Made by a program: the position numbers and the translations under genes. Source: Candidatus Jorgensenbacteria bacterium CG23_combo_of_CG06-09_8_20_14_all_54_14 (GTDB taxonomy: Bacteria; Patescibacteriota; Minisyncoccia; UBA6257; GWB1-50-10). Taken from it: a DNA stretch of 10,131 nucleotides. Of this stretch, positions 3,053 to 9,975 are shown piece after piece (positions within the stretch are counted from its first letter, which is position 1; each line of letters begins with the position of its first letter). The notes under the pieces are model-generated. The model worked only from the letters and a program-made list of their open reading frames with translations, ran no database searches and had not been told where the DNA came from. The stretch is taken from the NCBI GenBank assembly GCA_002772205.1, contig PCRZ01000019.1, positions 379 through 10,509 on the forward strand, written 5' to 3'.

Positions 3053-3592
3053 TTACTTTGCAGGTGCTCCTGTGGTCGCAGTTCTACTACCGGGTATATC
3101 TTTCTTGTGAACGATGAGGTCATAGACGTGTTTCAGGTGCCGGCGAAGATTCGGTTTGGAGAGCATCCGCGCCGCATCCCGGTAGAGGAACCACCCGTAC
3201 CCCTCGTGCCGCTCCCCTTGATGGTGTTCCGGCACTATCTTCACCCGCACCCGCGGCTCCCGGGTCTCCGCAAGGTAATACGTCACCGTTTTAAATATTT
3301 TCCTCCGGTTCCGCACATAGGTGAAATTGTCGTGCACCCTGAACGGTTCCTTGAACCTGAGGTCGCGGGACCGCAAACCTGTCTCTTCCTCCACCTCGCG
3401 GAGCGCTGCACGAAAAGCGTGTTCACCCTCACCAAGCTTGCCTTTGGGGAAGTTCCAATAGGCGCCGCCGCTATAGAGGAGTAGGAACCGCGGCCCTTCC
3501 CCTGTCCGGCGGTAGATGATGATGCCGGCGGAGATTTCACGCCCCGGCGCCATCGGAGGTCTCGCGGGTCTTATAAATATCTTGCGTTCCAT
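3053..3592 (-). CDS. Nudix hydrolase, Ap4A-hydrolase-like, 179 aa
   Basis: Nudix enzymes hydrolyse nucleoside diphosphates linked to another moiety, using divalent metal held by the Nudix box. The box GX5EX7REUXEEXGU is complete at residues 51-73: Gly51, Glu57, Arg65-Glu66, Glu69-Glu70, Gly72-Leu73. It is preceded by SAGIIIYRR and by YWNFPKGKL, the pattern seen in bacterial diadenosine-tetraphosphate hydrolases and related alarmone or nucleotide clean-up enzymes; the exact substrate is not readable. The protein is cytosolic. The C-terminus (about 160-179) is an extra basic, Ser/Thr/Ala-rich tail. It starts 11 nt after the MFS stop codon without a clear Shine-Dalgarno, so it probably belongs to the same transcript. 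Its place beside a glycosylase and an alkyltransferase fits a nucleotide-pool and DNA-maintenance theme. Confidence 0.9.
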   Translation of the reverse strand: MERKIFIRPARPPMAPGREISAGIIIYRRTGEGPRFLLLYSGGAYWNFPKGKLGEGEHAFRAALREVEEETGLRSRDLRFKEPFRVHDNFTYVRNRRKIFKTVTYYLAETREPRVRVKIVPEHHQGERHEGYGWFLYRDAARMLSKPNLRRHLKHVYDLIVHKKDIPGSRTATTGAPAK

Positions 3593-7156: not shown

Positions 7157-7768
7157 TTAGAACAGTGATGACTGCTGAACCGGCGGGGCGCTTTCCGCCA
7201 CGGGAGCGGCGAGCTCCTCGCGCTTCGCAATCACCGCGGGGAGCTTCTGGAACGCCTCGGTGAGCTCCTTGAGGGTCTGGGTGGAGCGGAGTGCCGCGGC
7301 GGTGTGGAAGAGGGGGTAGACGTACCGCCCGCCCACACGGAAAAGCTTCCCCTGGTCGCGGGAAATCTTCGCGGCGGGGAGAAAGTAGTTCATTGCGAAG
7401 CGCCCGAGGGGTGCAACGACTTTCGGCGCGATGATGTCAATCTGCCGCGCGAGGTAAGGGGCGTACGCGGCAATCTCTTCGGGAAGCGGGTCGCGGTTCT
7501 CCAGCGGGCGGCGCTTCACAATGTTTGTGATGTAGACGTCTTCACGCTTCCAGCCCAAACCCAAAATGAGCTTGTCCAAAAGCTGACCCGCGCGCCCCAC
7601 GAAGGGGCGTTTTAGTTGATTTTCGTAGAACCCAGGCGCCTCGCCGATGAACATGACCGCCGCATCGGGACTCCCCTCACCAAAGACGAGGTTGGACTCG
7701 CGGAGGGGGAGGCCCTCATCGCGCGCGAGCTCATCTTCCAGTGCGCGGAGGGATTCGGTTTTGGTCAT
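7157..7768 (-). CDS. Family-4-type uracil-DNA glycosylase lacking Fe-S cysteines
   Basis: Removes uracil from DNA as the first step of base-excision repair. The 203-aa protein shows the family pattern VFGEG (28-32), motif GEAPG (42-46), RPFVGRAGQLLD (54-65), VYITNIV (78-84), NRDPLPEEI (91-99), LGR (121-123) and the C-terminal His155 motif in FHTAAALR, where HP is usual. Odd feature: family-4 enzymes normally carry four cysteines for a [4Fe-4S] cluster, two near the N-terminus, one in KCRP and one in EEIxxC. Here the last two are Arg86 (KRRP) and Tyr102, and the whole protein has no cysteine. The tail ends QSSLF (199-203), which resembles a sliding-clamp-binding pentapeptide. First gene of the six-gene minus-strand run, with TATAAT 8 nt before the ATG and no Shine-Dalgarno. 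Confidence 0.92.
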   Translation of the reverse strand: MTKTESLRALEDELARDEGLPLRESNLVFGEGSPDAAVMFIGEAPGFYENQLKRPFVGRAGQLLDKLILGLGWKREDVYITNIVKRRPLENRDPLPEEIAAYAPYLARQIDIIAPKVVAPLGRFAMNYFLPAAKISRDQGKLFRVGGRYVYPLFHTAAALRSTQTLKELTEAFQKLPAVIAKREELAAPVAESAPPVQQSSLF

Positions 7769-7776
7769 TTAAAGCG

Positions 7777-7782
7777 ATTATA
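7777..7782 (-). promoter_or_regulatory. -10 box (TATAAT) of the glycosylase-led operon
   Basis: Perfect TATAAT on the minus strand, 8 nt before the ATG at 7768, so transcription would start about 2 nt before the start codon. The -35 region at 16-18 nt spacing matches poorly. Confidence 0.55.
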
Positions 7783-7796
7783 AACCGCATTAAAAG

Positions 7797-7805
7797 TTAT
7801 GCACA
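7797..7805 (+). promoter_or_regulatory. DnaA-box consensus (TTATGCACA)
   Basis: Exact match to TTATNCACA on the plus strand. It lies just upstream of the glycosylase promoter, in the divergent region. A single 9-mer can arise by chance; it gains weight from the second box at 7884. Confidence 0.45.
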
Positions 7806-7883
7806 GTACCACCATTGAAGCGGCCACTTTCGTGTTTGGAATCGTCAGAAAACGCGAGGTGATCGTATGTGGTTTTCGTGGGA

Positions 7884-7892
7884 TGTGGATAA
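7884..7892 (-). promoter_or_regulatory. DnaA-box consensus (TTATCCACA)
   Basis: Exact strong consensus TTATCCACA on the minus strand, reading TGTGGATAA on the plus strand. It is 87 nt from the first box, in opposite orientation, and 8 nt before the -35 of the LexA-methyltransferase promoter. It overlaps an imperfect GTG-N7-CAC dyad (7885-7897) that could alternatively be an operator. Confidence 0.5.
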
Positions 7893-7900
7893 CTCACCAT

Positions 7901-7928
7901 TTTACACTTTCTATTTATTTTCTATAAT
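7901..7928 (+). promoter_or_regulatory. Strong promoter of the LexA-methyltransferase/HNH operon
   Basis: TTTACA (7901-7906, 5/6), a 16-nt AT-rich spacer, then a perfect TATAAT (7923-7928). It is the best promoter match in the window. The predicted start point is about 7935, the A of the ATG, so the mRNA is expected to be leaderless. Confidence 0.7.
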
Positions 7929-7934
7929 ATCAGT

Positions 7935-9371
7935 ATGGTAACAAAAAGGCAAAAACAAGTCCTCGATTTCATAACTGATTATCGAGAGCGAAAAGGGTAT
8001 GCCCCCTCGCTTGATGAAATACGCAAGAAACTCAAACTTGCGTCAGTTTCAACAGCTCATTTTCATGTCTCCAAGCTCCGCAATTTGGGGTATTTAGTAA
8101 AGGAAGAAAATAAACCGCGATCTATTGATGTCGTGAGACGCGAGGGTATGGTTAAAATTCCTCTCTTGGGGACTATTGCCGCCGGACAGCCCATTGAAGC
8201 GATTCAAGATAAGGAAATGATCGCGGTCCAGAAAAGCAAGATTCCTTCCTCGTCAGAAGTGTACGCCCTCCGTGTGGTGGGTAACAGTATGATTGATGAA
8301 AATATAAACGACGGCGATGTTATTTTAGTGCGCCAACAAGAAACCGCCGAGAACGGACAGAAAGTAGTAGCTCTCATTGAGAATCACGAAGCAACATTAA
8401 AGAAATTCTACAAAGAGCGAGGGCATATCCGCTTACAGCCAGCCAATAAAAATATGGAGCCGCTCATCTTTCGAAACGGCCGAGATGTTTCCATACAAGG
8501 AATAGTACTTGATGTAATCCGAGATGTTGGCGCACCTATTCCTGAAACTGTTTTACCAAGAATAATAAAGCAGACGGATAGGAAAAGTTCTCCATATTTT
8601 GCGGCAGATAATATTTTGATATACAAAGATGATATTTTGAAAATTAGCTCGATACCAAACAATTCAGTGGACTTAATTGTTACCTCGCCACCCTACAATG
8701 TGGATATTCACTATAATTCTCATGCAGACAATTTATCTTACGAGGATTATTTGGAATTTACCCAAAAATGGATAAAGAAGTGTTTTGATCTCGCAAAAGG
8801 CGAAGGACGATTTTTGCTTAACATTCCGCTTGATAAAAATAAAGGCGGCCAAAAATCAGTTGGCGCGGATATTACGAAAATCGCGAAAGACATCGGCTGG
8901 AAATATCACTCAACAATCATTTGGAACGAGGGCAATATATCGCGCCGCACTGCTTGGGGTTCTTTTATGTCCGCCTCCGCCCCTTATGTTATCGCTCCGG
9001 TTGAATTGATTTTGGTTTTGTATAAAAATAGTTGGAAAAAAACAGGAGGGAGTAGAAAAAATGACATCACAAAACAAGAGTTTATGGATTGGACAAATGG
9101 GGTCTGGACTTTTAACGGCCAGAGCAAAAAAGGAGCAGGCGGACATCCTGCACCTTTCCCAATTGAATTACCGAGGAGGTGTATAAAATTATTTAGTTTC
9201 GTTGGCGATACTATTCTAGATCCATTTTTAGGCAGCGGATCAACACTAATCGCATCTTATTTGCACGGCAGAAAAGGAATCGGAGTCGAAATTGACGAAA
9301 AATATTGCAATATCGCAATAGACCGCTTGCAACAAGAGGCTAAAATAAATCAACCAAACTTGTTAAAATAA
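7935..9371 (+). CDS. LexA repressor fused to a beta-class DNA methyltransferase
   Basis: A single 478-aa frame. Residues 1-66 are a LexA winged-helix DNA-binding domain (TKRQKQVLDFI, GYAPSLDEI, recognition region SVSTAHFHVSKLRNLGYL). Residues 73-198 are a full S24 peptidase domain: cleavage site Ala83-Gly84 in GTIAAGQPI, nucleophile Ser118 in GNSMIDENINDGD, general base Lys156 in EATLKKF. These lie almost exactly where E. coli LexA has Ala84-Gly85, Ser119 and Lys156. After a linker, residues 225-478 are an amino-methyltransferase in beta order: TSPPYN (250-255, motif IV, catalytic), a variable target-recognition stretch, HPAPFP (404-409, motif X), then DPFLGSGST (429-437, AdoMet motif I). TSPPY favours N4-cytosine but N6-adenine is possible. 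Between residue 199 and the catalytic motif there is no ATG and only one GTG (codon 245), so separate translation is unlikely. The promoter suggests a leaderless mRNA; the HNH gene follows by 4 nt. Confidence 0.93.
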   Translation: MVTKRQKQVLDFITDYRERKGYAPSLDEIRKKLKLASVSTAHFHVSKLRNLGYLVKEENKPRSIDVVRREGMVKIPLLGTIAAGQPIEAIQDKEMIAVQKSKIPSSSEVYALRVVGNSMIDENINDGDVILVRQQETAENGQKVVALIENHEATLKKFYKERGHIRLQPANKNMEPLIFRNGRDVSIQGIVLDVIRDVGAPIPETVLPRIIKQTDRKSSPYFAADNILIYKDDILKISSIPNNSVDLIVTSPPYNVDIHYNSHADNLSYEDYLEFTQKWIKKCFDLAKGEGRFLLNIPLDKNKGGQKSVGADITKIAKDIGWKYHSTIIWNEGNISRRTAWGSFMSASAPYVIAPVELILVLYKNSWKKTGGSRKNDITKQEFMDWTNGVWTFNGQSKKGAGGHPAPFPIELPRRCIKLFSFVGDTILDPFLGSGSTLIASYLHGRKGIGVEIDEKYCNIAIDRLQQEAKINQPNLLK

Positions 9372-9375
9372 CACC

Positions 9376-9975
9376 ATGAAAAAGAATAAGAAGAAAAATG
9401 ACCATATTCAAAAAGACCTCGTTGTTGAGTTCTTTAGGAAAAATCCGAACCGTGATATAAAACACCCGGAAGTTGTTGATTGGGTGGTCGCAACTTACAA
9501 AAAGAGAACAGGAAATGTTTTTCGTGATCCCGACAGAGCAATCCGTCAATTAGCACAAAGCGGCTTCTTGATAAAAATTGCCAAAGGGGTTTATAAATAT
9601 GACCCCGACAAAGCGTATAAAAGGGATTTAGAAGATTTTACCGCCGCACAAAAAGAGGCAATTCTAAAAAGAGACGGCTACAAGTGCGTTATTTGCGGAC
9701 GAGGTAAAAAGGACGGCGTTGATTTACATATTGACCATATAAAACCAAAAGATTTTGGCGGCGAGGCAACAATCGAAAATGGTCAGACATTATGCTCACA
9801 ACACAATTTTATCAAAAAGAATTTGAAACAAACCGAAACCGGAAAAAAGATGTTTATCCGCCTTTATGAATTAGCAAAAAGCGAGAAAAACGAGGAGCTA
9901 ATGAAGTTTTGCGCTGATGTTTTAGAAACTTACGAAAAGCACGACATAAACGGACACATTGTCTGGAAAAAATAA
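9376..9975 (+). CDS. HNH endonuclease with N-terminal winged helix, probable restriction enzyme
   Basis: A 199-aa protein, basic at its N-terminus. Residues about 11-76 look like a winged-helix domain ending RAIRQLAQSGFLIKIAKGVYKYDP. Residues 104-149 form an HNH nuclease: zinc ligands Cys104 and Cys107 (CVIC), Cys140 and His143 (LCSQH), catalytic His121 in IDHIKP, the GG at 128-129, Asn135 in ENG and Asn144 in HN. HNH enzymes cut DNA with a single metal ion. A helical tail follows (150-199). It starts 4 nt after the methyltransferase stop, without a Shine-Dalgarno, so it is probably translated by coupling. The adjacent DNA methyltransferase makes a type II restriction endonuclease the best reading; a homing or mobile-element nuclease is less likely. 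Base composition is AT-rich like the methyltransferase part. Confidence 0.88.
   Translation: MKKNKKKNDHIQKDLVVEFFRKNPNRDIKHPEVVDWVVATYKKRTGNVFRDPDRAIRQLAQSGFLIKIAKGVYKYDPDKAYKRDLEDFTAAQKEAILKRDGYKCVICGRGKKDGVDLHIDHIKPKDFGGEATIENGQTLCSQHNFIKKNLKQTETGKKMFIRLYELAKSEKNEELMKFCADVLETYEKHDINGHIVWKK

Follow-up and report, generated by a model that had tools for sequence, protein, structure and literature searches.

The window analysed here is a stretch of 10,131 nt from Candidatus Jorgensenbacteria bacterium CG23_combo_of_CG06-09_8_20_14_all_54_14, and corresponds to the end of contig C34 (10,509 bp) in an assembly of 508,565 bp that is 94.6% complete. Towards its right-hand end lies a gene in which a LexA repressor is followed in the same open reading frame (ORF) by a DNA methyltransferase, and a gene for an HNH nuclease comes next; the contig stops 156 bp past the stop codon of the latter, where the visible downstream sequence ends. 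An earlier reading made from the letters alone (the sequence-only reading) had recognised both genes, including the nuclease at a distance of 4 nt. The features of the locus, with HTH standing for helix-turn-helix, are as follows:

7884–7894 (+): DnaA-box-like element TGTGGATAACT, the reverse complement of which contains TTATCCACA; left edge of the conserved upstream module
7901–7906 (+): -35-like hexamer TTTACA; 11 of 12 consensus matches when counted with the -10 hexamer
7908–7928 (+): candidate LexA operator, direct repeat TTCTA-N6-TTCTA with half-sites 7909–7913 and 7920–7924; in the promoter spacer, overlapping the -10 hexamer
7923–7928 (+): -10 hexamer TATAAT, 6 nt before the ATG
7935–9371 (+): LexA-methyltransferase fusion, 478 amino acids (ORF, Pfam, NCBIfam)
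7935–8120 (+): LexA winged-HTH domain, residues 1–62 (Pfam LexA_DNA_bind, match 3–62); residue 43 is Phe, codon 8061–8063
8160–8507 (+): Peptidase_S24 self-cleavage domain, residues 76–191 (Pfam); Ala83-Gly84 at 8181–8186, Ser118 at 8286–8288, Lys156 at 8400–8402
8667–9320 (+): N6_N4_Mtase domain, residues 245–462 (Pfam); SPPY precedes DPFLGSG; PADLOC MTase_II, 316 bits
9376–9975 (+): HNH nuclease, 199 amino acids (Pfam); HNH at residues 104–142; starts 4 nt past the fusion's stop codon

The fusion protein and its nuclease partner

The window protein is a full LexA fused to an N6/N4 DNA methyltransferase. Its ORF has no internal stop, and the matches to LexA_DNA_bind, Peptidase_S24 and N6_N4_Mtase each exceed the Pfam cut-off. 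With the curated NCBIfam equivalog lexA (TIGR00498), whose cut-off is 110.95, the protein reaches 185.5 bits, and all motifs named in the sequence-only reading are in place: the scissile Ala83-Gly84, the Ser118-Lys156 dyad, SPPY at 251, HPAPFP at 404 and DPFLGSG at 429. The same architecture occurs on other contigs, from P0004 to P0048 at 76–90% identity over 98–100% of the query, with L005 and L006 at 78–79%. An AlphaFold model of the fusion was poor (mean predicted local distance difference test score, pLDDT, 60.3) and was not used. When the whole fusion was compared by tblastn with plasmid (72,556) and phage (50,697) records, no match covered 80% of it; one member of the family, L085, lies on a putatively viral contig.

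The residues required for LexA self-cleavage are conserved across the family. A83, G84, S118 and K156 are unchanged in 167 of 168 LexA-containing ORFs of at least 300 amino acids, the exception (P0101) being a fragment without the region, while the LexA part as a whole has a median column conservation of 0.72 and a median pairwise identity of 0.57. The same four residues are among the invariant columns in 19 further fusions from other genomes. Because they are invariant, and an S24 domain kept for dimerisation alone would not be expected to need them, self-cleavage appears to be under selection. A natural variant, L129 (genome G089, 1492–2559), is an HTH-methyltransferase fusion of 356 amino acids that has an operator of the same type and an ORF in convergent position and is without an S24 domain.

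The HNH protein is the probable restriction enzyme of the pair. Its D120, H121 and N135 are invariant in 23 aligned rows, and its predicted structure (pLDDT 81.6, predicted template modelling score 0.44, i.e. modest confidence) combines a winged helix at the N-terminus with an HNH domain. Foldseek returned no match to this model at E <= 0.001, the best HNH match being 4h9d (E 0.053), so the model supports no more than this combination. The same type of methyltransferase is found without LexA at 29 of 80 loci whose sequence was examined (L010 is cut at the contig end), and an HNH relative follows just downstream in 22 of these 29, that of L066 being only a fragment. The record titles of the LexA-free pairs include Deltaproteobacteria, Nitrospirae, Omnitrophota, Nanoarchaeota, Campylobacter and others. 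Plasmid pCALNI01 of the cultured species Calditerrivibrio nitroreducens is one example: like the window, it carries a methyltransferase (64% identical over residues 228–471) followed by an annotated HNH gene, but unlike the window it has no LexA domain. Since the methyltransferase-HNH pair exists without LexA, LexA was probably added to an existing pair. With the methyltransferase motifs intact, and an adjacent, separate nuclease gene conserved with it as a pair, the window probably holds a two-gene, type II-like restriction-modification (R-M) system that gained its LexA later.

Candidate operator, recognition residue and genomic insulation

An operator had been expected within nt 7884–7934, and a candidate LexA box lies there, in the spacer of a near-consensus promoter. 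The distance from the -10 hexamer to the ATG suggests that the fusion mRNA may be leaderless. Across the family the box follows a direct-repeat pattern with a period of 11, [T/C]TC[T/G][A/G]-N6-[T/C]TC[T/G][A/G], which is present upstream of 79 of 84 fused ORFs; shuffled upstream sequences gave a mean of 0.9 and a maximum of 3 (100 shuffles). It was found at 4 of 370 control ORFs, a set that excludes those sharing the fusion's upstream region, and at none of 28 LexA-free methyltransferases of the window's type (all of the 29 loci that have upstream DNA; one has none). Among unfused LexA ORFs a direct repeat lies upstream in 13 of 26, a set that includes the contig-cut L065 and the split L111. 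The two half-sites share the same dinucleotide in 67 of the 79 fusions. A period of 11 is also that of GTTC-N7-GTTC, the LexA box of alphaproteobacteria.

Of 71 LexA positions compared in 91 rows, residue 43 in the recognition helix shows the largest excess mutual information with the operator dinucleotide. TA goes with Phe (49/56), GG with Glu or Gln (21/21), GA with His or Tyr (11/12) and the single TG with His; this table has 90 rows (78 fused, 12 unfused), the duplicate L138 having been dropped, and the tree test used 91. When the tree is built from the S24 domain only, all 7 independent pairs agree with the association of GG with Glu/Gln43 (p 0.016). The co-variation and the control counts amount to strong sequence evidence that the fusion reads the direct repeat as its operator.

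With as many as 3 mismatches allowed, the window's 21-mer operator matches nowhere else in the assembly of 508,565 bp. The assembly encodes one RecA and two LexA_DNA_bind proteins, both of them fusions. The second fusion (L118, G000:C23, 8187–9713, minus strand, 508 amino acids) has a convergent partner of 329 amino acids (7201–8190, plus strand), for which PADLOC gave no match, and a relative of this partner (L036) had no Pfam match. The operator of the second fusion, TTTCGGGTTTCTTTCGGGT, has a TTCGG half-site and its protein has Glu43, compared with TTCTA and Phe43 in the first, and it too is single in the assembly at <=3 mismatches. The operator pattern is absent from the 150 bp upstream of the genome's own recA (more degenerate sites were not sought genome-wide). 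At this tolerance the operators occur only at the fusions' own promoters, and a wider SOS regulon that includes recA was not seen.

All 38 fusion genomes that were searched for RecA have it. Judged by open-frame length, the fusion occurs in 18 of 99 relatives (own genome included), 13 of which have no other LexA_DNA_bind match, and two further variants were found among these relatives, one split (G083) and one without S24 (G089). Across the phylum it is present in at least 20 of 379 genomes, again counting the window's own; stand-alone LexA occurs in many of the 379, including several of the fusion-bearing ones. At L102 (around 624–677) a stand-alone LexA close to the fused ones is accompanied by a second operator and a DnaA-like box upstream of an ORF that looks SmpB-like by eye, which hints at a target beyond itself.

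LexA modules, methyltransferases and partner genes

The LexA-S24-methyltransferase architecture was sought in other genomes and its neighbours were listed, as the sequence-only reading had proposed, with the result that related LexA parts were found joined to C-terminal parts of very different kinds. The 167 C-terminal parts fall into 15 clusters at 40% identity. Representatives of all 15 were scanned, and 13 match N6_N4_Mtase, one a C5 methylase (L108) and one N6_Mtase/Eco57I (L111, in which the HTH sits on a separate upstream ORF). The 19 further fusions from other genomes all have the LexA HTH and S24, followed by N6_N4_Mtase in 14, a C5 methylase in 3 and MethyltransfD12 in 2. The D12-class methyltransferase (PF02086) seen fused to LexA at L167 (376–2145) and L178 (1489–3183) is a further methyltransferase family on this module. 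The window and L029 are 92% identical in LexA and 24% identical in their methyltransferases.

The LexA tree, with 65 rows in 14 states, requires no fewer than 30 switches of methyltransferase cluster, where 13 would be the minimum and 50 shuffles gave 35 or more (mean 38.3); for the five loci that have the window's type of methyltransferase, 5 switches are required. Being fused or not takes 9 changes on the LexA tree, but just 1 of them is forced by the starred branches. In the tree of methyltransferases of the window's type, fused and free rows take 19 changes, close to the 24.5 of shuffled labels, with just 2 forced by starred branches. Branch support is therefore limited, and repeated grafting rests more on the unrelated methyltransferase classes and the 92%/24% identity pair than on the trees. 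At E <= 1e-10, database searches with the LexA part alone recovered 3,174 and 2,373 proteins whose length is compatible with a fusion, and among the matches listed a precomputed methyltransferase domain was present in 115 of 120 and 120 of 120, respectively. Sources that name these long LexA proteins call them either LexA or methyltransferase.

Three LexA-methyltransferase loci are present in a single relative (G017; C14, C32, C36), one of which, L089, has an interrupted methyltransferase. Close unfused forms also occur: at L110 (3–2094) a LexA gene is followed, at a gap of 1, by a separate C5 methylase gene, and at L070 (4968–6384) LexA is followed by a weakly REase-like ORF, no methyltransferase being noticed by eye in the next ORFs.

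A neighbouring ORF lies within 120 bp downstream of 65 of 66 fused ORFs, convergent in 50 cases and tandem in 15, and 39 of the 50 convergent partners touch or overlap the 3' end of the fusion. The partner was defined as the nearest ORF of at least 80 amino acids, which gives some false or partial partners that are kept in the 65; doubtful examples are L051 (104 amino acids), L052 (116) and L054 (80), and the 'partner' at L089 is the remainder of the broken methyltransferase itself. In 11 of 11 partner groups having two or more members with an assigned methyltransferase cluster, that cluster is shared. By Pfam, partner representatives match Endonuclease_7 with His_Me_b4a2 (which we take to be Hpy99I-like), TaqI, BglII and MutH, a family that also includes Sau3AI, with a marginal match to PvuII; Bsp6I is matched by the partner beside the C5 fusion L109. 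PADLOC REase_II matches were obtained for 6 of 10 partner representatives in one set and 3 of 10 in another (two of them weak), while Pfam gave no match for 4 of 10 (L036, L023, L062, L084) and 4 of 5 (L085, L107, L070, L100) representatives. Of the 43 convergent partners examined, only 2 have the operator pattern in the 200 bp before them, and the regulated gene is therefore mainly the methyltransferase. At L072 (3203–3577) an ORF of 124 amino acids, ADP-ribosyltransferase-like by eye and without a PADLOC match, stands between the fusion and a nuclease-like partner.

Proposed regulation by DNA breaks: model, alternatives and known systems

We regard it as fairly likely that the fusion is a self-repressing methyltransferase which RecA-triggered cleavage sets free, so that protection would rise when DNA is broken, by self-restriction among other causes. 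From the architecture, the operator and the conservation, which are computed observations, we infer cleavage, its dependence on RecA, repression, the activities of both enzymes and a homeostat role in the following cycle. At rest the fusion, probably a LexA-type dimer, would bind the box between its own -35 and -10 hexamers and keep expression low. RecA filaments formed on broken DNA would induce the fusion to cut itself at Ala83-Gly84, the HTH would be lost, the promoter would open and more methyltransferase would be made; the released S24-methyltransferase part should still methylate. The cycle would act as a homeostat in which self-restriction leads to breaks, breaks to RecA filaments, and filaments to more modification. 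Such feedback from self-restriction to protection would be the simplest use of the arrangement, because a shortage of methylation causes type II R-M systems to break the DNA of the host and so to induce SOS, an effect described for post-segregational killing (PMC3874152). In most relatives the partner is tail-to-tail and without a LexA box, so induction would favour modification, and where the convergent genes overlap, antisense transcription might even work against the nuclease; EcoRI and Eco29kI are known to have antisense control (PMC12707154). In the window, a nuclease in tandem downstream would be expected to rise too. A cell newly receiving the cassette would contain no repressor, and the methyltransferase would be expressed first.

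More tentatively, and with about as much doubt as confidence, the promoter-plus-LexA unit can be viewed as a damage sensor of the plug-in type, grafted time and again in Patescibacteria onto R-M systems unrelated to one another. Each system would then be an insulated homeostat: when it cuts host DNA that is under-methylated, its methyltransferase would be induced through RecA.

Several observations weigh against the self-repressing, break-released methyltransferase. The tandem nuclease weakens a purely protective reading in the window, and this HNH protein matches only generic HNH and weak REase models (Pfam, PADLOC). The operator pattern was derived from the same upstream sequences in which it was counted, so that the weight lies on the controls and not on the hit rate, and 5 of the 84 fusions have no operator by the pattern used. 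The association of TA with Phe43 is the weaker one on the S24-only tree, a mean of 4.5 of 6 independent pairs agreeing (median p 0.0625, not significant). In fusion genomes, 3 of 26 recA genes are preceded by a lax form of the operator pattern (26 of 30 loci, the start not being found in 4; that of L189 was set inside the gene). Finally, L129, which is without S24, demonstrates that self-cleavage is not needed everywhere.

The sequence-only reading had proposed that cleavage, upon damage or phage entry, derepresses methyltransferase and nuclease together and so boosts restriction. The window itself, where the HNH gene follows 4 nt downstream on the same strand, and the tandem minority of the family fit this, and there the proposal may still hold. 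As a general rule it is not supported, given the convergent majority and the scarcity of operators upstream of convergent partners, and additional methyltransferase would presumably protect incoming phage DNA as well; a damage- or phage-induced defence is considered unlikely. It is improbable, too, that the fusion is a plain autorepressor in which S24 only dimerises, giving a circuit of the Ecl18kI, SsoII or EcoRII kind with no damage response. Autorepressing methyltransferase-repressor fusions have precedents (main text of PMC12707154), and L129 retains HTH, operator and methyltransferase with S24 gone, but under this explanation the cleavage site and catalytic dyad would not be expected to stay invariant (167/168) in a LexA part that has otherwise diverged.

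A control of timing, whose main tasks would be to establish the system in a new host and to couple it with replication, SOS cleavage being secondary, is suggested by the upstream element containing TTATCCACA, which resembles a DnaA box. Conservation upstream of 15 close loci begins at this element, and a TGTGGATAA-like box in either orientation occurs upstream of 66 of 84 fusions, compared with 6 of 370 control ORFs and none of the 28 LexA-free methyltransferases. The box is nevertheless absent at 18 of the 84 fusions and present at 10 of 26 unfused LexA genes. Its specificity to fusions is further weakened by the genome itself, which has 5 exact copies of TGTGGATAACT, 2 of them at fusions and the other three near genes that appear unrelated by eye. 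The element could serve replication coupling, or it could instead mark the edge of a transferred module, and we consider control of timing decidedly improbable as the principal function. At L058 (2281–5066) the cassette adjoins two ORFs whose lengths, 373 and 480 amino acids, resemble those of dnaN and dnaA, and DnaA-like boxes surround them.

That the fusion is the cell's general SOS repressor, with the methyltransferase a passenger, would agree with the two fusions being the only LexA_DNA_bind proteins of an assembly that has RecA, but each operator is confined to its own promoter at up to 3 mismatches, the 150 bp upstream of recA lack it and the two fusions differ in residue 43 and operator, so this role is very improbable. 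An assembly artefact or chance read-through joining two genes might be suspected on so short a contig, which ends soon after the HNH gene, yet its probability is negligible given the many other contigs with the same architecture and a shared promoter module.

The closest known systems include the dual-function methyltransferase repressors M.Ecl18kI, M.SsoII and M.EcoRII of type II R-M systems, which are C5 methyltransferases and, to our knowledge, have no S24 domain. As here, the methyltransferase is fused to an N-terminal HTH repressor that binds its own promoter (main text of PMC12707154). The present fusions differ in carrying a whole LexA with S24, in having what the sequence evidence suggests is a LexA-type direct-repeat operator, and in their unrelated methyltransferase classes. 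With LexA (TIGR00498), including stand-alone LexA of Patescibacteria, they share the winged HTH and S24, the scissile Ala-Gly and the Ser-Lys dyad, and half of the unfused genes also have the direct repeat; unlike stand-alone LexA they carry a methyltransferase, and in the window's genome the operators are restricted to the fusions' own promoters, to the exclusion of recA. C-protein R-M systems of the PvuII and BamHI type likewise place an R-M pair under autogenous control by a DNA-binding regulator (main text of PMC12707154), whereas here the regulator is part of the methyltransferase and potentially damage-responsive. No separate small C protein gene was seen beside the pair: the gap between fusion and HNH gene is 4 nt, the upstream neighbour is of the uracil-DNA-glycosylase family and the downstream side is cut by the contig end. 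In type I restriction alleviation (EcoKI, ClpX) damage also shifts the balance toward protection of the host chromosome (main text of PMC12707154); it does so by proteolysis of the assembled restriction enzyme, whereas the fusions, if the homeostat is correct, would act by derepression of the methyltransferase.

The sequence-only reading knew of no system of this kind, and no description of a LexA-methyltransferase fusion was found among the papers listed from an open-access library (in part judged by titles and abstract openings; REBASE and most subscription journals lie outside it). In the main text of a 2025 review (PMC12707154) LexA has 0 occurrences. What would be new is that the fused regulator is an entire SOS repressor able to cleave itself, apparently spread over many R-M families. 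It has long been asked how R-M systems manage not to kill their hosts and how they are tuned after becoming established, and a methyltransferase with its own DNA-break sensor would, if real, provide direct feedback from self-restriction to protection. The model predicts recA-dependent induction of the methyltransferase by damage. The family also shows a regulatory module shuffled among unrelated enzyme classes, and it would add a form of SOS wiring to a large phylum that is mostly uncultured. Orthogonal switches that respond to damage could be derived from the apparent code that links residue 43 to the operator.

Further genes in the window include one of the uracil-DNA-glycosylase superfamily (7157–7768, minus strand), which is divergent from the fusion with 166 bp between them, an O6-methylguanine-methyltransferase-like gene at 2591–2998 and a NUDIX gene at 3053–3592.

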